25,619 nucleotides of DNA from a virus. The notes under the pieces are model-generated. The model saw only the letters and a program-made list of their open reading frames with translations, was not told the DNA's origin and searched no databases. Shown piece by piece: positions 11,302 through 22,063 of the stretch. The stretch spans positions 1 through 25,619 of IMG/VR virus record IMGVR_UViG_3300017708_001872; one strand, given 5' to 3'. The position numbers and the translations under genes were made by a program. Every line of letters begins with the position of its first letter. Within the stretch, counting starts at the first letter, position 1.

Positions 11302-11466
11302 ATGAACCCATCTGAGATTTCTTTAAGAACTCCATCAAAATCTTTTGAGTATGAAAGACTTTCAAGAGATATCGATAAAATTGAGGATATTGAAGAACTA
11401 AGAACGGCTCTTAAGTCATATATAAAATTATATTTTAAACAACAAGAAACACTTAAATTTCTCTGA
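11302..11466 (+). CDS. Small helical protein, 54 aa, unknown function
   Basis: A 54-aa protein starting MNPSEISLRTPSKSFEYERL and ending QQETLKFL. The ATG is preceded by AAAGGA (11287-11292) at a good distance, and a sigma70-like promoter lies upstream. After a short N-terminal arm the rest looks like a charged two-helix hairpin with a Tyr/Phe-rich face (YIKLYF). The layout, a helix with acidic residues, then a Leu/Tyr helix ending near the C-terminus, loosely recalls the small phycobilisome-degradation protein NblA. I see no motif that proves this, so it stays a hypothetical protein. It is not a shadow: no other gene covers this stretch. Confidence 0.6.
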   Translation: MNPSEISLRTPSKSFEYERLSRDIDKIEDIEELRTALKSYIKLYFKQQETLKFL

Positions 11467-11549: not shown

Positions 11550-12797
11550 TTGACCATCACTCTTCGTCCTCATCAGAAACGTGCTTGTGATGCTATGCTT
11601 AAGCATGACATCGGTCAAATCATTGTTCCTACAGGTGGTGGTAAAACTATCTGTATGATTCAAGATGTCATAGAGAATTGTAAGTATATTGACAACGGAA
11701 TGACGACTGTTGTTGTTGCTCCACGTATTCTGTTGGCAGAACAACTGTGCTCTGAATTCCTTGAGTTGATTGATACAACTCATACACATGTGATGCATGT
11801 TCATAGTGGTGAGACACAGCATTTCAGCACCACTAAAGCAGATCAAATCCACATGTTTGCTAATACTGCACGTGCAGTAGGTGAGAACTGCATCATTTTT
11901 ACCACATATCATTCTCTCCATCGTGTTATGGAAGCAGATATTGAGGTAAACAACATCTATTTTGATGAAGCACACAATTCTGTGACTCGTAACTTTTTTC
12001 CTCCTACTGAGTTTTTCAGTCATAATGCTGATCGTTGCTACTTCTTTACTGCAACTCCAAAGCATTCTATCACAGTGATGAAACCTGGCATGAATGATCC
12101 TGAAGTTTACGGTCAGGTTATTTGTCAGGTTCCTGCTCCTGAACTTGTGAATGGTGGTTTTATCATTCCTCCTAAGGTTGTTGTCAATCAATTAGATAAT
12201 GTAGATCTTTACCCTGATGTTCCTGTTCGGGATTCTACACATCTAATTAAGACTATTGACGAGACTGGTGCTGATAAAGCATTGATCTGTTCTAAATCTA
12301 CGCAGAACATTATCAATTTGATTGGTCAGTCTGACTTTACTTTTCAACTAGAATTGCGTGGTTATTCTTACATGTATATCACTGCTAAGACTGGTGCTAT
12401 CATCGATGGTCGTAAGGTCAACCGTGAGAAGTTCTTTGACACTTTGAGTGCTTGGGGTAAGGATGATACTAAAAAGTTTGTTGTGCTTCATCACAGCATC
12501 CTCTCAGAAGGTATCAACGTCTCTGGTCTTAATTCTGTTATTTTTATGAGGTCAATGAATTACATTGGCATCAGTCAGACTATCGGTCGTGTGATTCGAT
12601 TGCATAAAGATGATGCTGCTGGTCTTCGCAATGGAACTATTGTTCCAGGTAAACTTGATCAGTATACCAAATCTTATGGTTTGGTTTGTATTCCTGCTTA
12701 TAACAAAGTTGGTATTCAGACTGCTCAAAAGATTCAGAATGTTGTTGACATTGTGTTTGAGCAAGGTGCTGCTGCTGTTTCCGTAATTAAGAAGTAA
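11550..12797 (+). CDS. Superfamily 2 DEAH-box helicase
   Basis: A 415-aa ATP-dependent nucleic-acid helicase. Motifs in order: Q-motif-like TLRPHQKRA near the N-terminus, Walker A PTGGGKT at 27-33, VVVAPRILLAEQ (motif Ia), DEAH at 139-142, TATP at 167-170 (motif III), SEGINVSGL (motif V) near 320, and QTIGRVIR at 343-350 (motif VI). It resembles the DNA-repair/recombination helicases of T4-like phages (UvsW and relatives), but T4 UvsW is longer with an extra N-terminal domain, so I do not assign that symbol. The start is TTG (11550), preceded by GGAAAG (11541-11546), and behind a sigma70-like promoter. The codons are more C/G-ending than in the structural genes, as expected for an early gene of different origin or expression. 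Confidence 0.88.
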   Translation: MTITLRPHQKRACDAMLKHDIGQIIVPTGGGKTICMIQDVIENCKYIDNGMTTVVVAPRILLAEQLCSEFLELIDTTHTHVMHVHSGETQHFSTTKADQIHMFANTARAVGENCIIFTTYHSLHRVMEADIEVNNIYFDEAHNSVTRNFFPPTEFFSHNADRCYFFTATPKHSITVMKPGMNDPEVYGQVICQVPAPELVNGGFIIPPKVVVNQLDNVDLYPDVPVRDSTHLIKTIDETGADKALICSKSTQNIINLIGQSDFTFQLELRGYSYMYITAKTGAIIDGRKVNREKFFDTLSAWGKDDTKKFVVLHHSILSEGINVSGLNSVIFMRSMNYIGISQTIGRVIRLHKDDAAGLRNGTIVPGKLDQYTKSYGLVCIPAYNKVGIQTAQKIQNVVDIVFEQGAAAVSVIKK

Positions 12798-13029: not shown

Positions 13030-13698
13030 ATGACTGAATTTGCAATTTATGGTGATGTACCAAATGGAAATGAAGAATATTTAATTCCTATGTTCTCTAC
13101 TCCACTTCTACATCTTAAGATAGAAAATTGGGAGGAAAAGAAAAAAGAACTTCTTGAAATGTATGAGAGAAGAAAATCTGATAAATCTAAATTTAAAGTT
13201 GCCACAGGAAGTGAAACCAGTTTAGATGTAGAGACTGATTATCATTTTAATCATGACCATGGAGAGACCTATGATGAACTAATCATGGATCTTTTTAGGG
13301 ATGAGTTAGAAGCACTTGCTGATACATTTGAATGTGGTGTAGAAGTTTGTACTTCATGGTTTGAGAAAGCATCAACCACTAAGTTTCATCAAGTTCATAA
13401 CCATGGGTCTCAAGGATTCAGTGCAGTTTGTTTTGTTCAATTTGATCCAAAACATCATACACCAACTATCTTTTTGAATCCTAATCTGGCAGATGTTGAA
13501 ACCTGTAATATTATTCCACCTGGAATTAGAGAGGGATCAATGATATTTTTTCCATCATATGTTCTCCACTATACTGCACCAAATCAAAGTGATGTAGATA
13601 GAATAATTTTATCATTTAATGTTAATACGGAGTATGAAATCTTTTCATTTGAAGAAGAAAGTCAAAATTCAAGTGAATACTGCACAACCGATGTCTAA
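13030..13698 (+). CDS. 2OG-Fe(II) oxygenase-like protein, TIGR02466-type
   Basis: A 222-aa protein with the late half typical of the 2OG-FeII_Oxy_5 group. KFHQVHNHGSQGFSAVCFVQF gives the H-x-H pair at His123/His125, then FFPSYVLHYTAPN supplies the distal His180, and DRIILSFNV has Arg191, the expected 2-oxoglutarate-binding Arg. The first ~110 residues are helical and charged, and begin with a YLIPMFSTPLLH strand also seen in the gene at 14982 (RIELFTTPFFDYKL). The family uses Fe(II), O2 and 2-oxoglutarate; the substrate is unknown. It is the first of four closely packed genes of this kind, and its 3' end overlaps the next start by 8 nt. Confidence 0.75.
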   Translation: MTEFAIYGDVPNGNEEYLIPMFSTPLLHLKIENWEEKKKELLEMYERRKSDKSKFKVATGSETSLDVETDYHFNHDHGETYDELIMDLFRDELEALADTFECGVEVCTSWFEKASTTKFHQVHNHGSQGFSAVCFVQFDPKHHTPTIFLNPNLADVETCNIIPPGIREGSMIFFPSYVLHYTAPNQSDVDRIILSFNVNTEYEIFSFEEESQNSSEYCTTDV

Positions 13699-14254
13699 AT
13701 CATTTGTTCTCAGAAACTTTCTATTTCAAGATGATGTAAGAAAACTAAATCAATGGACTATTGATAACTGCTGTCAAGAGTTCTTTGAGGATGCTAACAT
13801 GGATCCTGATAATTCTGGAACAAGGTTTACAACTCGGTTTCCAAATGAATCAGTTGCTCCAAGTATAGATTATCCTGATGCCGCATACATTGCCAGACAA
13901 AGAATTATAAATTACTTTGACTTGTATGAATACAAAAGTCCTCCATCATATAGTCATGGGATTGTAAATGGTATTGGATATTCTGGTGGAAGAATAGAAG
14001 AACATATTGATCCTACATATTATCCAGATACGAAAACAGTTCATTTTAATGCCATTACACAACATGCCGATAGGGGTGGACATACTATCATTGGTGGTGT
14101 AGAATATACTGACTTAGATCCTACAGATCTTTTAATATATCAAGTATCTGAAATTCACCATGAAGTTACTGTAACCAAAGGTGATAATCCTAGAATACTA
14201 TGGGTGTTTGGTTTTTGTTTAGACGATGAAAAGATAGGAGAAATATTTTTATGA
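13691..14254 (+). CDS. 2OG-Fe(II) oxygenase-like protein
   Basis: A 187-aa protein starting MSKSFVLRNFLFQDD. The open frame extends upstream to an ATG at 13619, but that would overlap the previous gene by 80 nt with a Lys-rich N-terminus unlike the family; the ATG at 13691 overlaps by only 8 nt. GGRIEEHIDPTYYPD carries the H-x-D pair His105/Asp107, EIHHEVT has the distal His (156 or 157), and NPRILWVFGF has Arg168. Between them GGHTIIGGVEYTDLDPTDLLIY fits the jelly-roll core. An oxygenase role is likely and the substrate is unknown. The stop TGA overlaps the next ATG. Confidence 0.72.
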   Translation: MSKSFVLRNFLFQDDVRKLNQWTIDNCCQEFFEDANMDPDNSGTRFTTRFPNESVAPSIDYPDAAYIARQRIINYFDLYEYKSPPSYSHGIVNGIGYSGGRIEEHIDPTYYPDTKTVHFNAITQHADRGGHTIIGGVEYTDLDPTDLLIYQVSEIHHEVTVTKGDNPRILWVFGFCLDDEKIGEIFL

Positions 14255-14982
14255 GAGATTTGAGAAGAGATCCAACACTATTTGAGACTAATGATTTCTC
14301 AAATATGAATATTATTGAGTTTGTTGATGGTAATAGAGTATCTAATCTTTATTGGATGGATAACTTTTATAAAAGACCTGATGATGTTTATAGTTACTTA
14401 CTTTCGATTGAACCACCACTATGGAAAGTTGGACCAGAATGGGATTTAGGTAGAGGAACTCTTAATACCAAATACTTTGAAGATCGCAGACATATGATGA
14501 AACATCCTGGTATCTGTTCATTATATAATAAACTTAGCAATATTTGTAATCAACAACCTCTAGATGATGAGATTGTAACTAATTTCACAAGATTCTCGAA
14601 AGTTAAAGAAAACCCACATGACACTCATTTTTGGTGGCCACATCACGATGGAGGATATAATGGTATCTGCTATCTTTCAAAGAAAGAAGAGATTGGAACA
14701 AATTTATATAAACCAACTGTTACTGACAATCCAAAAATTTTACCCTTAGATGAGAATGGTGGTGTGAGAGATGAACATGCTATTCCATGGACACCTAAAG
14801 ATTTGTGGGAAATTGTAGTTAGATTTCGATCAAAGTTCAATCGATTTGTTATGTTTGAGGGATCTTACTATTATCACAGTATGGATCTTACGGGTAAAAA
14901 TTACTTTGCGGATCACTATAGTGATGCTGAGTTTAGAATTAATCAAGTATTTTTCTTCAGGAATCCTAGGGCAAGAGAATAA
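14251..14982 (+). CDS. DUF6445-like / 2OG-oxygenase-fold protein
   Basis: A 243-aa protein. FWWPHHDGGYNGICYLS gives an H-x-D pair (His131, Asp133) followed by the strand that normally follows it. FVMFEGSYYYHSMDL supplies a distal His209, and AEFRINQVFFFRNP has Arg229. The order and spacing fit the double-stranded beta-helix oxygenases, and the pattern resembles the DUF6445 group, whose function is not established as far as I know. It is coupled to both neighbours (ATGA overlap upstream, TAATG downstream). An unusually long segment (residues ~145-190) lies between the proximal and distal ligands. Confidence 0.65.
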   Translation: MRDLRRDPTLFETNDFSNMNIIEFVDGNRVSNLYWMDNFYKRPDDVYSYLLSIEPPLWKVGPEWDLGRGTLNTKYFEDRRHMMKHPGICSLYNKLSNICNQQPLDDEIVTNFTRFSKVKENPHDTHFWWPHHDGGYNGICYLSKKEEIGTNLYKPTVTDNPKILPLDENGGVRDEHAIPWTPKDLWEIVVRFRSKFNRFVMFEGSYYYHSMDLTGKNYFADHYSDAEFRINQVFFFRNPRARE

Positions 14983-15644
14983 TGACAGAGCATAGATTTA
15001 GACCAGAAGTAAAACCAAATGATGATAATTTTGTTCCTATAGAAGTAGAAACTAGGGATAGAATTGAATTGTTCACCACACCATTTTTTGATTATAAATT
15101 AGATTTTGATAATCAAGAAATTGTTGATGAGTGTTTTGAACTAAAAGATAAGTATCCGAATGGAGTTAGGAAATCTAACTTTGCAGATGGGTGGCAAAGT
15201 CAAGTTTTTGAATTATGTGAAATACGGAGAGGAGTTACACCTGCAATCCAAAATCTTGCTAGAAATGTTATTGACCTGACAAATGATATGTTAGAAGATT
15301 GTGGTTCTGGGTCAAGAGTTAGTGATGAGCAAATTGGTTGGTGGATTAACATCAACAAAGGAATGGGTTACAACGTCTTTCATACACATCCTGGTTGCTC
15401 AGTTATTGGAATCTATTATCCAATGATTCCTGATAATCTTGAAGAAAACGAGGGAAACTTAACTATTCTCAGAACTGATCCATCAAATCATAATGCTGCA
15501 TTTGCCGATGTCCCCAATCATTGTGAATGGGTAATTAAACCTGAGGTAAATAGGTTGTATTTAATGCCTTCTACAGTTGGGCATTATGTTACACCACATT
15601 TTAGTGACAATGAGAGAATATCTATCGCATTTAATATTGGATAA
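14982..15644 (+). CDS. 2OG-Fe(II) oxygenase, TIGR02466-type
   Basis: A 220-aa protein and the clearest member of the 2OG-FeII_Oxy_5 type here. WWININKGMGYNVFHTHPG contains His134/His136, VIGIYYP is the next strand, YLMPSTVGHYVTPH gives distal His201, and NERISIAFNIG gives Arg212 and the typical C-terminal end. Length and layout match the gene at 13030, so the two probably share ancestry. The substrate is unknown. It starts on TAATG of the preceding gene and its stop codon lies inside a late-promoter-like GATAAATAATAC. Confidence 0.8.
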   Translation: MTEHRFRPEVKPNDDNFVPIEVETRDRIELFTTPFFDYKLDFDNQEIVDECFELKDKYPNGVRKSNFADGWQSQVFELCEIRRGVTPAIQNLARNVIDLTNDMLEDCGSGSRVSDEQIGWWININKGMGYNVFHTHPGCSVIGIYYPMIPDNLEENEGNLTILRTDPSNHNAAFADVPNHCEWVIKPEVNRLYLMPSTVGHYVTPHFSDNERISIAFNIG

Positions 15645-15653
15645 ATAATACAC
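15640..15653 (+). promoter_or_regulatory. Late promoter candidate (GATAAATAATACAC)
   Basis: Overlaps the stop codon of the oxygenase gene and lies 28 nt before the short fibre gene at 15681. Its core ATAAATAATACAC is identical over 13 nt to 17501-17513, before another late-type gene. Confidence 0.5.
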
Positions 15654-15680
15654 GTATCCGTTGTTAGTAATTGGTATAAT

Positions 15681-16217
15681 ATGTCTATTCTGCAAACGAG
15701 TGGTATACAATTTGGACTTGATAATACTGTTTTAAACTCTAAGTATGGCATTATTCCTCAGAATAGTGTAGCAGTGTTTTATCAACCATCAGCACCCAGT
15801 GGATGGGCACAAGTAACCACTCATAATAATAAAGCACTTAGAGTTGTATCTGGTTCTGGTGGAGGATTTGGTTCTGGTGGAACTGCTGGTCCTGGTGGAC
15901 AACCATTCTCTACCATATTTCCCACATCAACTCGTCCAATTAGTGGAACTGTAACTGCTGTTGGTACTGTTGGAGGAACAACATTGACCACTCAGCAAAT
16001 TCCTGGACATACACACAATGCGGGTTCTCAAGTTAACGTAAGTCCTGGATCTCCTGGTATTGGTGGACGTGCTGTAAATTCTGATGCACCTGCAACATCA
16101 CCAACTGGTGGTGGAACATCACATACTCACCCATTTTCTGGTGGAGCATCACCATATTCTGGAAGTATTGATCTGAGAGTTCAATATATTGATGTCATTC
16201 TCTGTCGTTTTAGTTGA
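15681..16217 (+). CDS. Short tail fibre protein with paired H-x-H motifs
   Basis: A 178-aa protein starting MSILQTSGIQFG. Residues ~25-60 (GIIPQNSVAVFYQPSAPSGW) match the tail-collar/short-fibre module found in many phages. LTTQQIPGHTHN carries a G-x-H-x-H motif at His110/His112, and a second pair is at His148/His150. In T4 long and short fibres such H-x-H motifs bind iron or zinc along the trimer axis, so a metal-stabilised trimeric tip is likely. The Gly/Ser/Pro-rich stretch between the pairs would be the exposed, variable part. The C-terminus (LRVQYIDVILC) is almost identical to that of the next gene. A late-type promoter lies upstream. Confidence 0.78.
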   Translation: MSILQTSGIQFGLDNTVLNSKYGIIPQNSVAVFYQPSAPSGWAQVTTHNNKALRVVSGSGGGFGSGGTAGPGGQPFSTIFPTSTRPISGTVTAVGTVGGTTLTTQQIPGHTHNAGSQVNVSPGSPGIGGRAVNSDAPATSPTGGGTSHTHPFSGGASPYSGSIDLRVQYIDVILCRFS

Positions 16218-16227
16218 GGTATAAGAT

Positions 16228-17490
16228 ATGTCAATTTTAAAGGCAGACGGAATTCAGTTTGGTGGTGGCAGTCAGTTAAATAGTTTTTACGGGATTATTC
16301 CTCAATCCTCTACGATGGTATTTTACCAGGCGGCAGCACCAACTGGTTGGACTAAAGATATATCAGAAAACGATAAATCACTTAGAGTTGTTGATGGTAC
16401 TGGTGGATCATCTGCTGGATCTGTAAGTTTCACTACATTATTTAATGATTCTGGTGCAGACAGCACTGTTTCTTCAACTCTTTCAGGAAGCACTGGACCA
16501 ACAACATTAACAACAGATCAACTTCCTGCACATACACATAACACTGGAAGTAATCCTAATTCATATAGATCTTCCGAAGGTTCTTCACCATTTAGACAAA
16601 ATAATAGACAACCACGTGGATATAATATTAGAGCATCAACTAGAATTGTTCTAGACACTAGAGTTAGTGTCGATTTTAGACAACCAACAAATGTAAGACA
16701 ACCTCTTAACTATAGACAACCACAAAGGCAGAGAGTTCCACTTAGACAGAGACAACCAAGAAACTTTAGAGTTAGATATCAAACACGTTCTAGAAATCCA
16801 TTTACTTTCAGAGTTCCTGTTCCTTTCCGTGTTCCATTAAGATCTAGAGCACCATTTAGTTTCCGTCAGGGTGGTGGAAGAAGTAGAAGACCAATTCCAA
16901 ACTCTTTCCGTGTTGGTGTAAGAAGGAATGATAGAGAACCAAGAAGAAGAGGAGGGAGACGTAGAAGAAACGATAGATTCCCAAGAAGAGCAGTAAGAAG
17001 ACAACCTAGAAATACAAGTTATAGGCAAAGAAGGCAAACTCGAAGACCTGTATCTGGAAGACAGAGAAGATCTTTCCGTCAACCTCGTAACTTTAGACAA
17101 CCCAGAAATGGTAGGCAGAGAAGAGATTTTAGACAGAGGCAACCGAGAACATTTAGAGTGAGATATTCATTCAGGCAGAGAAATGGTTTCCGAGTGGATA
17201 TTCCGTTTAGAATAACAGTTCCTCAAAGAAATCCTGCATCCTATAGACAACCAAGAGCATATCGTACACCTCAAAGATATCCTCAAGTTACGAGTATAAG
17301 ATTCCCATTGAGAACTTTGAGTCCTGGTGGTACTATCAGGGCAAATAATACTCAAGCACCTGCAACATCATCAACTGGTGGTGGTCAAGCACACGTTCAT
17401 CCATTTACTGGATCTCCAATATCATTTACAGCAGGATTATCACCATTGAGAGTTCAATATATTGATGTGATTCTTTGCAGTTTGGATTGA
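16228..17490 (+). CDS. Short tail fibre paralogue with Arg-rich hexapeptide insertion
   Basis: A 420-aa paralogue of the 178-aa protein just upstream: MSILKADGIQFGG, YGIIPQSSTMVFYQAAAPTGW, LTTDQLPAHTHN at the start and LRVQYIDVILC at the end. H-x-H pairs are at His102/His104 and His389/His391. Between them, residues ~123-361 form an insertion rich in Arg, Gln, Pro and Phe/Tyr with a six-residue period, R-[QV]-[PR]-x-x-[FY]. I count about 74 Arg in about 240 residues and no Lys. The insertion would form an extended, very basic tip or shaft. The frame is intact and rejoins the conserved C-terminus, so this is not a frameshift product. GAGG overlapping the previous stop serves as ribosome site. 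Receptor or surface-polysaccharide binding is inferred. Confidence 0.8.
   Translation: MSILKADGIQFGGGSQLNSFYGIIPQSSTMVFYQAAAPTGWTKDISENDKSLRVVDGTGGSSAGSVSFTTLFNDSGADSTVSSTLSGSTGPTTLTTDQLPAHTHNTGSNPNSYRSSEGSSPFRQNNRQPRGYNIRASTRIVLDTRVSVDFRQPTNVRQPLNYRQPQRQRVPLRQRQPRNFRVRYQTRSRNPFTFRVPVPFRVPLRSRAPFSFRQGGGRSRRPIPNSFRVGVRRNDREPRRRGGRRRRNDRFPRRAVRRQPRNTSYRQRRQTRRPVSGRQRRSFRQPRNFRQPRNGRQRRDFRQRQPRTFRVRYSFRQRNGFRVDIPFRITVPQRNPASYRQPRAYRTPQRYPQVTSIRFPLRTLSPGGTIRANNTQAPATSSTGGGQAHVHPFTGSPISFTAGLSPLRVQYIDVILCSLD
16594..17310 (+). repeat. Degenerate 18-nt (hexapeptide) tandem repeat
   Basis: Protein pattern R-[QVAS]-[PR]-x-x-[FYV], with runs such as FRQPTNVRQPLNYRQP and FRQPRNFRQPRNGRQ. Most Arg codons are AGA, with some CGT. 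The period slips near the Arg-dense centre (residues ~231-262). Flanking DNA is shared with the 178-aa paralogue (CCTGCAACATCA, then CAACTGGTGGTGG on the right side), which marks the repeat as a module inserted into a common scaffold. Confidence 0.7.
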
Positions 17491-17498
17491 TCGTGCTA

Positions 17499-17513
17499 TA
17501 ATAAATAATACAC
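17499..17513 (+). promoter_or_regulatory. Late promoter candidate (TAATAAATAATACAC)
   Basis: Lies in the 36-nt gap before the gene at 17527. It shares ATAAATAATACAC with the element at 15641-15653. Confidence 0.5.
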
Positions 17514-17526
17514 TGAATTTTATCTT

Positions 17527-17913
17527 ATGACTAAATCAACTGGCAAGTGGTGTCCGCTTATTAAAAAAGATTGTGTCGAACATAAGTGTGCATGGTATAC
17601 ACATATCACTGGGCAAGATCCTAACACTGGAAATCCAGTAGATCATTGGTCTTGTGCAGTTCAATGGATGCCAATGTTGATGATTGAAAATAGTCAACAA
17701 CAAAGATCTACAAGTTCTGCTGTTGAATCATTCCGTAATGAAATGACAAAGGCACATGAAACTAATCAGAACATGTTAGATGCCGTTGGCAATATGTATC
17801 TTGATATGTGTGAAGCACAGGGTGTCAATGTTTCTGAATACATTGAACAAATCGAAGGTATAGATAATGAAGAAGAAAATTTACTACCCGAATCTGACGA
17901 GGAACAACAATGA
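17527..17913 (+). CDS. Cys-containing small protein, unknown function
   Basis: A 128-aa protein. The N-terminal ~45 residues carry Cys9, Cys16, Cys21 and Cys43, with His19 and His26 nearby (KWCPLIKKDCVEHKCAWYTH), the kind of arrangement that binds zinc or an iron-sulfur cluster. The remainder is predicted helical (ESFRNEMTKAHETNQNMLDA) with a very acidic C-terminus. A late-type promoter lies just upstream and the stop overlaps the next gene by 4 nt, so it should be co-expressed with the coiled-coil protein among virion genes. The function is not known to me. Confidence 0.68.
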   Translation: MTKSTGKWCPLIKKDCVEHKCAWYTHITGQDPNTGNPVDHWSCAVQWMPMLMIENSQQQRSTSSAVESFRNEMTKAHETNQNMLDAVGNMYLDMCEAQGVNVSEYIEQIEGIDNEEENLLPESDEEQQ

Positions 17914-19256
17914 AAATTTCCATCATCCCAGAAGATAAAAAAATTATTGTAGATGGTAAGACTGTTGATCTTGAGGATAATGCACCTTGGGACTTTGATG
18001 ATGAAACTGTCCATGCAATTCAGTGGAGAGATGGCAGAGGTGAATTAGAATATGAAGATGTCATTGGTGAAGATCCTGTACCAAATAAAATTTTTAGTGA
18101 AGATGAATTTGATACTATTGTTCAACCATATCTAGACTATTTTAATACATTCTTGTCAATCTATGAGCAGAGAGAACTTGCTGCGGCATTAGAAGAAGAG
18201 GAAAATCTTTCTAAGCAGATTGAAGAATTGAACATTGATAAACTTGAGAAAGAAGCACAACTTGTCATCATTAATGATCTTCAAAAGCAAAATGAAGAAC
18301 TTCGTAGTGAGAAAGAAAAACTTTACGATCTAAAATCTAAAGAAGAACAGAAAAGTGTCTATGATAGGCAAACCACTCTGATGGAACTTGAGAGAGAAAA
18401 AGCAGCAAGAGAAAGAGAAGTTGCAGCACTTGAACAACAAAAAGCAGATGAATTCTTTCAGAAAAAGTCTTTAGAACTTTCTAAAAAGTATGATGAACTT
18501 TATCATAGTTTTGAAAAAGAAAAGGAAGAATTTATTGAGGAAAGAAAGCAGTATCAAGAACTGCTTCAGATGGAACGTGATAAGATGGAAAGAGAAACAG
18601 AACTTCTCGAAAAGAACATTCTTGAAGATGAGCAAGAAAAAGAACTTAAGAGAGCAAATGATGATAAAGTTCGTGAACTTGAACTAGAACAAATTGAAAT
18701 TTCTAGAATGGAACTTGAACTTCAAAAGCAAGGACTTGAAACTGCATGGGGTGATGCACAATTTACAATGGAAGAAGTTGTGCGTGAGAGAGAAAAAATG
18801 AAACTTGATCATGAGTTGGAACAGAAAAAATTCCAACAGGAAGTTGATCATGAGATGGATATTATCATGAGATCTCATGAAGAAGTTCTTAAGAAAATGG
18901 ATATTGAACAGACATATGATGAACTTGATGATGCATTAGAGAGAGAATTTGATAGGGCAGAGAAAGAGTATAGAGAAGTGCAAAGAGCAAAACTTCTTGA
19001 ATCACATAAGGCAGAAAACACTGATCCAAGTCAACTATCTAAACTTGCTAAAGAAAGTATAGAGAGACAAGAAATTGAGAGTGGTCAAGAATATAGTGTT
19101 GATGACATTTTGTCACTCATGGATGAAATTGATCCAGAAAAACTATACACTACTCTTACAGATGATGAGAGAGACGATGGTAATGGAATGCCTCTAGATA
19201 AGGCAGTTAAATGGTTTGCTGCATTAAAAGAAGTTCTAGATAAAAACGATAAGTAA
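17910..19256 (+). CDS. Long coiled-coil protein with phage-type N-terminal domain
   Basis: A 448-aa protein. Residues 1-~80 (MKISIIPEDKKIIVDGK, HAIQWRDGRGELEYED) resemble a small domain often found in phage proteins encoded near tail fibres. From about residue 87 to 400 the sequence is an almost unbroken Glu/Lys/Leu/Gln coiled coil with very few Gly or Pro; the C-terminal ~60 residues (VDDILSLMDEIDPEKL) are shorter helices. By itself the coiled coil could span about 40 nm or fold back on itself. Context in a late block next to fibre genes suggests a fibre, whisker or assembly-scaffold part, but a non-virion role is possible. It starts at ATGA overlapping the previous stop. Confidence 0.7.
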   Translation: MKISIIPEDKKIIVDGKTVDLEDNAPWDFDDETVHAIQWRDGRGELEYEDVIGEDPVPNKIFSEDEFDTIVQPYLDYFNTFLSIYEQRELAAALEEEENLSKQIEELNIDKLEKEAQLVIINDLQKQNEELRSEKEKLYDLKSKEEQKSVYDRQTTLMELEREKAAREREVAALEQQKADEFFQKKSLELSKKYDELYHSFEKEKEEFIEERKQYQELLQMERDKMERETELLEKNILEDEQEKELKRANDDKVRELELEQIEISRMELELQKQGLETAWGDAQFTMEEVVREREKMKLDHELEQKKFQQEVDHEMDIIMRSHEEVLKKMDIEQTYDELDDALEREFDRAEKEYREVQRAKLLESHKAENTDPSQLSKLAKESIERQEIESGQEYSVDDILSLMDEIDPEKLYTTLTDDERDDGNGMPLDKAVKWFAALKEVLDKNDK

Positions 19257-19262
19257 TGACAT

Positions 19263-20624
19263 ATGAAACTTGAATTATTGAAAAACAACTACATTGTTGT
19301 TCCTGGTTTTATTGATTTAGATTATGCTAAAAGATTAGAAACAGAGTTTATCGTAACAGACGCACAATTTAAGTTTGAAGGTGATGAACAGGCACCAAAC
19401 TCTTCATCATGCTTTAACTTTCATCCTGCTATAGAATTACTCACCAATAAAACTAGCACAGTTAGTGAACTTATCGGTGAAACTGTTCTACCAACATATA
19501 CTTACTCCAGAATATATCGCAACGACAGTGTTCTTAAGAGGCACACAGATCGTCCTGCTTGTGAAATATCAATGACAGTACATCTTGGTGGTGATAAACC
19601 TTGGGCAATCTGGATTGAGACACCAGAAAGTGTAAAAAAATGCATCACTTTGAATCCTGGTGATGCTGTGTTATACTTAGGTTGTGTTTCTCCACACTGG
19701 AGAGGTAGATTTGAAGGTGACTATTATGCACAAATCTTCTTACACTATGTGAGAAGTAGAGGAATGTATGGTTGCACATATTTTGATAGACTAATCACAG
19801 AAGACATTGAAGATCATGAAGCACTACAAAAGGAGTATGATGAAATGAAAAACAAATTTGACCATGTATCCACAAAAACAATTCTCCCTAAAAAATATAG
19901 AGATCAACAGTCATCCTCATTAGATATTATTGAACAGGATGATGAAACAGAACAATATATCAATTTTGATGACGTTGTTATAGCAAATAGTAAATATGAA
20001 AAGTTCCTTAAACCTAAGAATACACCAGAAATACAAACTAAAACAAAGGAATTAAGTCGTTTTAGTTTGGAGCATTTTGTCTGGCACAAAGAAGAGTTTA
20101 TTGATCCAGATTTTTGCGATAAACTTTTGGAAGAATATGCTCCAACTAACTATTGGGAGAGTACATTAACTGGTGCTGGGCATGATCCAGATGCAAGAAG
20201 ATGTGAGTTTATTCCAATTTCAGATCAAGCAGTTATTGAGGAAAATAATCAAGAGGGTAGGAGAGAAATTGATAATTATCTCTTTAATGTTGTAAAAGGT
20301 ATCATTGAAGAATATCAGGAAAGTTATCCTGAATTTGAATTGGAGATTCAAGAAGATAGTGGATATGAACTACTAAAGTATGAAGAAGGTGACTTTTATA
20401 TTCAGCATACTGATTCATTTAAAGACCAACCTAGAGCATTGACTGTCATTATGTCAATGAATGATGGTTATGAAGGTGGTGAAGTTGCACTATTCAACCG
20501 TGAATTAGTGTATAAACTCAATGCTGGTGATGTATTAGTTTTCCCATCTAATTTTATGTACCCACATGAGATTTTACCTGTAACTGAAGGAACTAGATAT
20601 TCTATCATAACCTGGATTGTATGA
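19263..20624 (+). CDS. Two-domain 2OG-Fe(II) oxygenase
   Basis: A 453-aa fusion of two oxygenase domains. Domain 1 (~1-175): YSRIYRNDSVLKRHTDRPA has His94/Asp96, LNPGDAVLYLG precedes distal His145 (SPHWRGRF), and the strand YYAQIFLHYV follows; no Arg or Lys sits at the usual 2OG-binding place after the distal His, where Gln157 falls. A charged linker (~180-265) follows. Domain 2 (~270-453) is prolyl-4-hydroxylase-like: LLKYEEGDFYIQHTDSF has His382/Asp384, EGGEVALF is the typical strand, and NFMYPHEILPVTEGTRYSII gives His435 and Arg445. Domain 2 should be active; domain 1 may differ in co-substrate or be structural. Substrates are unknown. The stop overlaps the next ATG. Confidence 0.82.
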   Translation: MKLELLKNNYIVVPGFIDLDYAKRLETEFIVTDAQFKFEGDEQAPNSSSCFNFHPAIELLTNKTSTVSELIGETVLPTYTYSRIYRNDSVLKRHTDRPACEISMTVHLGGDKPWAIWIETPESVKKCITLNPGDAVLYLGCVSPHWRGRFEGDYYAQIFLHYVRSRGMYGCTYFDRLITEDIEDHEALQKEYDEMKNKFDHVSTKTILPKKYRDQQSSSLDIIEQDDETEQYINFDDVVIANSKYEKFLKPKNTPEIQTKTKELSRFSLEHFVWHKEEFIDPDFCDKLLEEYAPTNYWESTLTGAGHDPDARRCEFIPISDQAVIEENNQEGRREIDNYLFNVVKGIIEEYQESYPEFELEIQEDSGYELLKYEEGDFYIQHTDSFKDQPRALTVIMSMNDGYEGGEVALFNRELVYKLNAGDVLVFPSNFMYPHEILPVTEGTRYSIITWIV

Positions 20625-21274
20625 AGGATAGTGATTTTATTGGTGTTTATCTAAATTCATTAGATAAATCTACATGTGACAATGTTATTGAATACTTTGA
20701 ATCTAACTATAAACATCCCGACGATTCTGATTGTAAAATAAAAGCAGGATATGGTTCAGATGAAAGTGAGAGAGGTTATCTTGCTCGTCATGATGAACAA
20801 TGGTACTTGGAATCAGGCAATCCTTGTGCAGATCTTGTCCTAAAAGTTGTTGATCATTGTTGGGAACAATACCGTAAAAAGTATTGGGTTTCTGATTATA
20901 TTGATGTCTATTTTGATGAGGTAAAAATACAAAAGACTTCACCTAGAGGTGGATTTCATGATTGGCATTGTGAGGTAAATGATCTAGGAGTCGTTGACAG
21001 ATGTGTTGCATGGATGTTATATTTGAATGACATTCCTGAAGGTGAAGGTGAAACTGAGTTTCTTTGGCAAGGTCTCAGAGTACAACCAAAGGCAGGTACG
21101 ATGTTAATTTGGCCAGCATTCTACACTCATACTCATCGTGGAAATCCCGTATATTCTTGCAGTAAATATATTGCAACTGGATGGGGTTTATACTTAAGTG
21201 ACGATGATGTTGAAATGGTTGACCATTTTGAATGGGATAATGAAAAGAAAATCTACACAGGAAGAAAAAACTAA
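20621..21274 (+). CDS. 2OG-Fe(II) oxygenase, prolyl-4-hydroxylase-like
   Basis: A 217-aa protein. GGFHDWHCEVND gives His116 and Glu118, an H-x-E version of the usual H-x-D pair. WMLYLNDIPEGEGETEFLWQ is the hallmark of the P4Hc fold, VQPKAGTMLIWPAFYTHTHRG gives the distal His (170 or 172), and SKYIATGWGLY places Lys182 where prolyl hydroxylases use Lys to hold 2-oxoglutarate. Several of these features are closer to P4H enzymes than in the other oxygenases here. H-x-E can still bind iron but often changes activity. The gene overlaps both neighbours (ATGA upstream, TAATG downstream), so it belongs to the same transcript. Confidence 0.8.
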   Translation: MKDSDFIGVYLNSLDKSTCDNVIEYFESNYKHPDDSDCKIKAGYGSDESERGYLARHDEQWYLESGNPCADLVLKVVDHCWEQYRKKYWVSDYIDVYFDEVKIQKTSPRGGFHDWHCEVNDLGVVDRCVAWMLYLNDIPEGEGETEFLWQGLRVQPKAGTMLIWPAFYTHTHRGNPVYSCSKYIATGWGLYLSDDDVEMVDHFEWDNEKKIYTGRKN

Positions 21275-21489
21275 TGGCACTATCAGATCAAGTTAAAGAC
21301 GAATTAGACTCTGCTCAGACACATCTTCGTGAAGCATTAGCATTTGCTGCAAGAAATGAGAAACCTTTTATTGTTAAGACATTGGGTGAAATGATCCATG
21401 CCTTAGATACTTTAGGACATGCAGATGAGTTTATGGATACTATGAAGGACTTATTGGAGGAGCAGAATGATGAATTACCAGATTTTTAA
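21274..21489 (+). CDS. Small helical protein, 71 aa, unknown function
   Basis: Begins MALSDQVKDELDSAQTHLRE and is predicted all-helical, acidic overall, with no Cys. It starts on TAATG of the oxygenase stop and its 3' end contains GGAGG (21456-21460), the ribosome site of the next oxygenase, so the three genes form one tightly coupled unit. No family is recognised. Confidence 0.6.
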   Translation: MALSDQVKDELDSAQTHLREALAFAARNEKPFIVKTLGEMIHALDTLGHADEFMDTMKDLLEEQNDELPDF

Positions 21490-22063
21490 CGAACCATTTC
21501 CATACATTATCATAGAAGATACCTTCGATGCAGAACAACTAAAACTGATTTGGAGAGAACTTGAATTTCTTCTCGATAAATTGAATGATCCAGAAAAGTA
21601 TTATGCTGCAAAGGATGAAAATGGAAACTACATGACAACAGCAAAAGGTATGTCATTGGATGCACTGTATAGTCAAAGATCTGTCTCCGACATTCTAAAC
21701 ATTACTGGAGATATTTTCTTTAATGATGATAAATTTTTTGATGATTTGATACAAAATAATCAATATTGGGTGACATATGAAAAATCTGATACAGATTATA
21801 CCAAAGTTAGGAGATATTATCCTGGTGATGGATATGAACCACATACAGACTATTGGGTTCATGCTTTAATTAGTACCACATTATGCTATAAAGAGGATTC
21901 TGGTGGAAATTTATACTTTCCCAAGCAAGATCTAGAAATAGAAACAAAAAATAATAGAACAATTATATTTCCTGGATGGGTTGAGCACAGTGTTACAGAT
22001 GTTATCGAGAATGAAAGATATGCTGTCACAAAATTTGTTTGTTGCACGTCAGACAAAAAGTAG
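21467..22063 (+). CDS. 2OG-Fe(II) oxygenase-like protein
   Basis: A 198-aa protein. YYPGDGYEPHTDYWVHA supplies His126/Asp128, TTLCYKEDSGGNLYF is the following strand pair with the conserved Gly-Gly, IIFPGWVEHSVTDV gives His174, and ENERYAVTKFV gives Arg184. All expected ligands are present, so it is probably active. Two ATGs in a row (21467, 21470) follow GGAGG at 6 and 9 nt; either can serve. It is the last oxygenase of the cluster, and a dyad and early-type promoter follow its stop. Confidence 0.78.
   Translation: MMNYQIFNEPFPYIIIEDTFDAEQLKLIWRELEFLLDKLNDPEKYYAAKDENGNYMTTAKGMSLDALYSQRSVSDILNITGDIFFNDDKFFDDLIQNNQYWVTYEKSDTDYTKVRRYYPGDGYEPHTDYWVHALISTTLCYKEDSGGNLYFPKQDLEIETKNNRTIIFPGWVEHSVTDVIENERYAVTKFVCCTSDKK

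Follow-up and report, generated by a model that had tools for sequence, protein, structure and literature searches.

Seven genes at positions 13030-22063 of a 25,619-nucleotide viral DNA (IMG/VR record IMGVR_UViG_3300017708_001872; the whole stretch is called the window below, and its genes are named by their first position) encode eight Fe(II)/2-oxoglutarate (2OG) oxygenase-like domains. Judged by sequence similarity, the window phage is a virus of ocean cyanobacteria, sister to the nearest isolate, Synechococcus phage S-SCSM1 (Kyanoviridae, NC_070962; 84% covered, 82% identity). We tentatively propose, at somewhat less than an even chance, that the block is one instance of a large, fast-diversifying set of 2OG hydroxylases of marine T4-like phages (Kyanoviridae), which recurs where the distal fibre genes meet a helicase gene and perhaps serves to modify late proteins. 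The gathering of 2OG genes near this helicase gene, which borders the distal fibre block, and not near the capsid gene, is new as far as the available parts of the literature show.

Domain identity and conservation of the oxygenases

An earlier note on this DNA had recognized eight 2OG-oxygenase-like domains in these seven genes and, in most of them, the expected Arg or Lys. Both statements hold: the metal triad is invariant in the orthologue alignments of all eight domains (6 to 14 distinct orthologues), a C-terminal basic residue follows the distal His in seven of the eight, and five domains pass the Pfam gathering cut-offs (27 bits each for PF13759 and PF13640), namely those of 13030 and 14982 for PF13759 and those of 20621, 21467 and the C-terminal half of 19263 (19263C; the N-terminal half is 19263N) for PF13640. 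It is very probable that the proteins are 2OG oxygenases of known kind. Their features are as follows.

13030..13698, + strand: 2OG oxygenase, PF13759/TIGR02466-like, HxH variant (PF13759 40.8 bits, phrog_81 2.5e-38); H123xH125...H180, R191, invariant in 14 rows
13691..14254, + strand: 2OG oxygenase-like protein without a family model (conserved motif, low-confidence model); H105xD107...H157, R168, invariant
14251..14982, + strand: DUF6445-like/phrog_1644 2OG-like protein (phrog_1644 6.3e-31, DUF6445 below cut-off); H131xD133...H209, R229, the Arg spacing (+20) being longer than usual
14982..15644, + strand: 2OG oxygenase, PF13759/TIGR02466-like, HxH variant (PF13759 53.7 bits, PDB 3bvc E 2e-4); H134xH136...H201, R212, invariant in 12 rows
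19263..20624, + strand: two-domain 2OG oxygenase (C-terminal half PF13640 59.2 bits, predicted jelly-roll in both halves); 19263N H94xD96...H145, with Tyr155 at +10 instead of a basic residue; 19263C H382xD384...H435, R445
20621..21274, + strand: 2OG oxygenase of prolyl 4-hydroxylase (P4H)/PKHD type, PiuC-like, HxE variant (PF13640 42.7 bits); H116xE118...H172, K182
21467..22063, + strand: 2OG oxygenase, PF13640 (38.4 bits); H126xD128...H174, R184, with H126, H174 and R184 invariant in 7 rows

The different subtypes named in the earlier note are supported. The HxH, HxD and HxE variants are all present, the HxH of 13030 and 14982 being a variant of the metal triad with candidate metal-binding His residues; the cut-offs of TIGR02466 and of DUF6445 (PF20043) are not reached, as 13030 and 14982 score 29.3 and 48.2 bits against an NCBIfam cut-off of 62.5 for the former, and 14251 reaches 19.6 bits against 24 for the latter. 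Similarly, the PKHD-type PRK05467 models, with an equivalog cut-off of 143 bits, are matched below it by 19263C (at best 46 bits) and 21467 (19.3 bits) and do not match 20621, which in a profile search retrieves PiuC structures (3.6e-18) and P4H (1.6e-10).

For conservation, 18 loci were compared (17 from IMG/VR and S-SCSM1), eight of them cut by contig ends and 10 spanning the block; nine of these 10 carry all seven 2OG genes in order. An IMG/VR contig of 153,808 bases (L004) shows 100% protein identity to the window over the region compared. Ratios of nonsynonymous to synonymous substitution rates (dN/dS) relative to the window show that the seven oxygenase genes are under purifying selection: they are 0.05-0.21 for 13030-14982 (one pair undefined), with similar values for the helicase (0.10-0.16), and 0.17-0.42 for 19263, 20621 and 21467, with 0.16-0.40 for the fibre genes 15681 and 16228. 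The cluster is not a product of chance, given the hidden Markov model E-values, the dN/dS of 0.05-0.42 and the clustering in S-SCSM1, where seven of the 24 2OG genes fall inside 12 consecutive genes (P 0.003).

For 13691 and 14251, membership is supported by conserved motifs together with a poor model or with matches below threshold. The start of 13691 overlaps the stop of the 13030 gene, the longest open reading frame (ORF) opening at 13619; no Pfam or PHROG family matched it, and in the phage collection only S-SCSM1 (2 records) has a homologue. The earlier note had expected jelly-roll folds for all the domains, and structure models were made for 19263 and 13691. The fold is borne out in both halves of 19263; the model of 13691 is poor, with a predicted local distance difference test score (pLDDT) of 56 (the four other models of five reach 29-32). 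Among the 50 matches of this model that were listed, nearly all are of prolyl-hydroxylase type (PHD2/P4H), with a best Z of 10.0 and a root-mean-square deviation (rmsd) of 4.2. Since the model is weak, the assignment of 13691 rests on its conserved H-x-D...H...R pattern. Profile searches of the PDB gave no match for 14251 and no convincing one for 13691. Indirect support for 14251 as a 2OG protein comes from phrog_1644: it has 26 matches in 17 records, of which seven fall on frames also matched by PF13640, and 13 divergent members retain H131, D133, R198 and R229 with few or no exceptions. The label 'minor coat protein' carried by phrog_1644 appears to be wrong here and was rejected for proteins of this kind.

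In the AlphaFold model of 19263 (16-row alignment, mean pLDDT 70) two jelly-rolls (double-stranded beta-helices) are seen. In VIA-align comparisons, 19263N matches P4H/PHD2 prolyl hydroxylases with Z 16-18, and 19263C matches the algal prolyl 4-hydroxylase 3gze with Z 16.6 over 160 residues at 24% identity. No Pfam family exceeds its cut-off in 19263N, the sequence of which matches only phrog_3531/2954 and in which R83, R147 and Q157 are also invariant. In two loci (L049 and L050) the N-terminal domain is a separate 201-amino-acid protein, and in phage S-SCSM2R a 19263 homologue (L054 8001-9284; 38.5% identical, 100% covered) heads a run of genes for glycosyltransferases, a radical-SAM protein, an aminosugar-type synthase and an amidinotransferase.

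Recurrence beside the helicase and the distal fibre genes

Counts of 2OG genes were made with PF13640 and PF13759 in 15 marine T4-like records and are lower bounds, these two models finding 19 of the 24 genes in S-SCSM1 and five of the seven in the window. A rotation test was applied to the 13 records with the helicase marker, leaving out the two without it. The 2OG places lying at most 12 kb from the helicase numbered 38, compared with 16.5 expected by random rotation (P 0.0005), and nine of the 13 genomes have at least two. The excess persists without S-SCSM1 (33 against 14.5, P 0.0008) and without both S-SCSM1 and Syn9 (26 against 13.2, P 0.008). Of the other markers, the capsid gene had 10 places nearby where 19.7 were expected, and DNA polymerase had 32, with 19.8 expected (P 0.03). 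Several of the genomes had been chosen for matching a window gene; five phages chosen otherwise (P-SSM2, S-SM2, Syn9, S-PM2 and S-SSM7) gave 18 against 6.8 (P 0.008). The S-T4 record repeats part of its cluster near both ends, which inflates its count.

By annotation, the 2OG genes of S-PM2, Syn9, S-SSM7 and ACG-2014b adjoin fibre or tail genes or separate these from the helicase, those of S-T4 and Sf-CH8 directly follow the helicase, on its side away from the tail genes, and those of HTVC008M lie between baseplate and neck genes. Tryptophan halogenase genes adjoin the 2OG cluster in Syn9 (L068 4966-8071; two halogenases); one lies beside a 2OG gene in HTVC008M (L070 13764-15158) and another near baseplate genes in S-SCSM1 (L022 3512-4678).

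The earlier note's expectation that such phages carry single or few genes of this kind is contradicted by S-SCSM1, with 24 (PMC9602691; this and the other papers cited are drawn on in their available portions), and by our counts, which range from 3 to 21 places per record (P-SSM2 21, S-SSM7 19, HTVC008M 16). Numerous 2OG-Fe(II) genes were reported in 14 of 16 cyanophage genomes by Sullivan et al. (2010; PMC3037559), and ten in S-CREM1 (PMC9964418); phage T4 has no PF13640 or PF13759 match. A special density, as the note supposed, was likewise rejected: the maximum per 9 kb is 7 in Syn9, 6 in P-SSM2 and 5 in both HTVC008M and S-SCSM1, and the cluster is therefore ordinary for its virus family.

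Annotations under-count these genes, since 2OG-like proteins in the records of S-SCSM1, Syn9, S-PM2, P-SSM2, ACG-2014b, S-T4 and S-SSM7 carry the labels 'DNA endonuclease V' (phrog_274), 'ferrochelatase' (phrog_2954/3531) or 'minor coat protein'. We rejected the first two of these labels as well for proteins of this kind. Seven proteins labelled as endonuclease V, taken from five other phages, all match PF13640 (E 1.9e-6 to 0.0019), two of them above the cut-off. Two ferrochelatase-labelled proteins of S-SCSM1 match PKHD models below the cut-off, and two such proteins of Syn9 and HTVC008M gave no Pfam match.

The embedded fibre genes and other neighbours

Read along the + strand, the window has genes for fibre-like and virion proteins up to 11188; a 54-amino-acid ORF, the helicase and a small gene come next, then four 2OG genes (13030-15644), a fibre/coiled-coil block (15681-19256) and three further 2OG genes (19263-22063). 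All cluster genes are co-directional, and adjoining genes abut or share a few bases except at the fibre/coiled-coil interruption. The neighbours are listed below.

11550..12797, + strand: helicase, conserved neighbour of 2OG clusters (phrog_16, T4-GC 36 homologue)
15681..16217, + strand: short tail-fibre tip-like protein with two HxH motifs (S-SCSM1 homologue gp128, annotated as a tail fibre and virion protein)
16228..17490, + strand: fibre tip-like protein related to 15681, carrying an Arg-rich insert of hexad repeats (S-SCSM1 gp127, labelled 'short tail fiber protein')
17527..17913, + strand: small protein encoded between fibre gene 16228 and coiled-coil gene 17910 (position conserved, no PHROG match)
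17910..19256, + strand: Glu/Lys-rich coiled-coil-like protein (by composition; no Pfam or PHROG family; phage-collection homologue only in S-SCSM1)
21274..21489, + strand: small conserved protein (phrog_1179)

The earlier note had placed the oxygenases around a tail-fibre block. A fibre-side setting does recur in other marine T4-like phages; the two embedded fibres are not general partners, and 15681 and 16228 were rejected as conserved partners on several counts. Their relatives in the phage collection are few (8 and 7 records, respectively), related fibres in RN05-S and CRP-361 are free of annotated 2OG genes over 8 kb and about 5 kb, respectively, and S-T4 and Sf-CH8 possess the helicase and 2OG cluster without these two fibre genes. 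In S-SCSM2R a single 2OG gene lies about 1.3 kb from a relative of these fibres. The pair is thus outside the conserved helicase/2OG neighbourhood, and could be a local partner of the oxygenases.

The 16228 protein may resemble a long fibre tip whose HxH motifs bind metal, as in T4 gp37. Between its two HxH motifs, residues 112-380 include 76 Arg in 269 residues with a period of 6 (38 pairs at lag 6 and 42 at lag 12, other lags up to 15 giving 13 to 29). Over nine rows, Arg is invariant at 66 of its 76 positions, and other residues at 66 of 193. Among 17 phage records, a profile of the insert matches clearly in S-SCSM1 only, with one weak match in S-SCSM2R (6e-5). No collagen-like GXY run occurs in the eight window fibre and neighbour proteins examined.

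The 54-amino-acid ORF (11302-11466) occupies the place of an S-SCSM1 gene annotated as nblA, also of 54 amino acids and in the fibre/helicase gap; a Pfam search with it found no match at E 0.01. An Rfam search of the window found nothing, and promoter and terminator scans gave chance-level results only.

Possible functions and alternative explanations

The seven proteins most likely hydroxylate peptides or small molecules; fibre or other late proteins may be among their targets. We consider it an even bet that peptidyl hydroxylation is the main chemistry; that fibre proteins are the main target is rather doubtful, the case for fibre or late proteins being drawn from gene position and the nearest structural relatives. 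Each predicted enzyme would have hydroxylase activity and be synthesized in infected cells from two putatively translationally coupled runs, 13030-15644 and 19263-22063, and none would serve as a structural subunit; the available text on the S-SCSM1 virion proteome, which comprises 45 proteins, names no 2OG protein (PMC9602691). Their targets would probably be several different peptides or small molecules, as opposed to one linear pathway. The P4H/PKHD-type members most likely hydroxylate side chains of late proteins, fibre and baseplate included, and such hydroxylation might tune assembly, stability or receptor binding. A bolder version, which we regard as improbable, is that marine T4-like phages oxidatively decorate their own adhesins, fibre-side hydroxylases modifying side chains of the fibre and baseplate proteins prior to assembly; the Arg-rich 16228 tip, encircled by the battery of oxygenases, is then a possible substrate or receptor-binding surface. 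Among the papers listed by our literature searches on fibre hydroxylation and on PiuC, none was relevant.

Several observations weigh against a hydroxylase set tied to the fibre/helicase neighbourhood. Neither 13691, compared with two of the other oxygenase families, nor 14251 gave a significant profile match to these families, and 19263N is without the usual 2OG-binding basic residue. The rotation P values are optimistic because the genomes are related by ancestry, and four of the 13 genomes (S-SCSM2R, RN05-S, ACG-2014f and S-SM2) have no 2OG place within 12 kb of the helicase. A second 2OG group lies in the replication block of S-SCSM1 (eight genes) and of P-SSM2 (its densest cluster). In S-SCSM1, four of the 24 2OG genes are adjacent to structural genes, against 2.4 expected (P 0.20), with P 0.13 for proximity within 3 genes and P 0.04 within 5.

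It is conceivable, although on balance unlikely, that the place is an insertion hot spot without common function, in which flexible genes (mobile 2OG paralogues and spare fibres) gather where the fibre block meets early genes. The 2OG genes of S-SCSM1 are at most 44.2% identical to each other (PMC9602691), different subtypes stand side by side, the content of the same place varies among phages, and relative L018 (8438-8444) lacks 20621 between otherwise conserved neighbours; the seven-gene order kept in nearly all spanning loci and the purifying selection speak against this explanation. That the enzymes tailor glycans or small molecules, for instance host-surface sugars or a secondary metabolite, appears improbable: no sugar or glycosyltransferase gene was recognized in the window block with Pfam and PHROG, even though the S-SCSM2R homologue of 19263 lies among biosynthetic genes as described above, other S-SCSM1 2OG genes lie beside sugar genes and the SnoN epimerase is among the top fold matches of 19263.

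Less probable still is a role in nucleic-acid repair or modification, by AlkB-like direct repair or base oxidation together with the adjacent helicase. The helicase is indeed the most constant neighbour of 2OG clusters, a review reports the AlkB-like repair idea and the location of Syn9 2OG genes next to UvsX/UvsY (PMC2984593), and 19263C weakly matches PF09859 (E 0.03) and Tet_JBP (E 0.07). However, no AlkB family match is listed at E <=1 for any of the seven, the structures closest to these proteins are those of prolyl and PKHD hydroxylases, and the same review, in its available text, sees no evidence of modified nucleotides in cyanomyoviruses. We give similarly little weight to the drawdown or sensing of 2OG as a means of adjusting host nitrogen and energy metabolism, which was proposed by Sullivan et al. 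(2010) in connection with NtcA sites (PMC3037559) and repeated for S-SCSM1 (PMC9602691); one abundant enzyme would suffice for this purpose, and seven divergent, separately conserved active sites with differing metal motifs are left unexplained. Few gene families of abundant ocean phages are as expanded as the 2OG oxygenases, to which the available literature gives no function; their recurrent location on the fibre/helicase side is a concrete, testable lead that can replace the general 'host metabolism' label.

Comparison with known systems

The closest solved relatives of 20621 in the profile search are the PKHD-type PiuC and bacterial and viral prolyl 4-hydroxylases (9ghl, 5hv0 and 5c5t); the window proteins differ from PiuC/PKHD enzymes in that, where they match at all, they stay under the NCBIfam PKHD cut-offs. 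For 19263, the best Foldseek matches are the tandem-domain prolyl-3-hydroxylases OGFOD1/Tpa1 (E 6e-11), but whole-chain superposition fails (template-modelling score 0.27, rmsd 21), and only the single domains match well.

S-SCSM1 has all seven 2OG genes in the same order, with the fibre and coiled-coil genes in the same places and 60-88% protein identity. The equivalents are ORF240-243, 248, 249 and 251, which correspond to gp132-129, gp124, gp123 and gp121; the gene tags, turned into consecutive order, reproduce the ORF numbers of the 2022 description (PMC9602691). That paper sorts the 24 2OG genes, those of the cluster included, into four subfamilies and notes ORF248 as a two-domain protein; in its available text the cluster, its fibre/helicase side and ligand conservation are not discussed, and fibre-side clustering is equally undiscussed in the available text of the S-CREM1 and Sullivan papers (PMC9964418, PMC3037559). 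Beyond this sister phage, Syn9 (gp45-gp60), S-PM2 (p227-p233), S-SSM7, ACG-2014b, Sf-CH8 and S-T4 each carry several 2OG genes in the vicinity of the same helicase and of fibre or tail genes. The gene content of these clusters differs from that of the window, no counterpart of 13691, of the coiled-coil gene or of the Arg-rich insert being found in them; like the window, they mix members of PF13759, PF13640 and phrog_1644.

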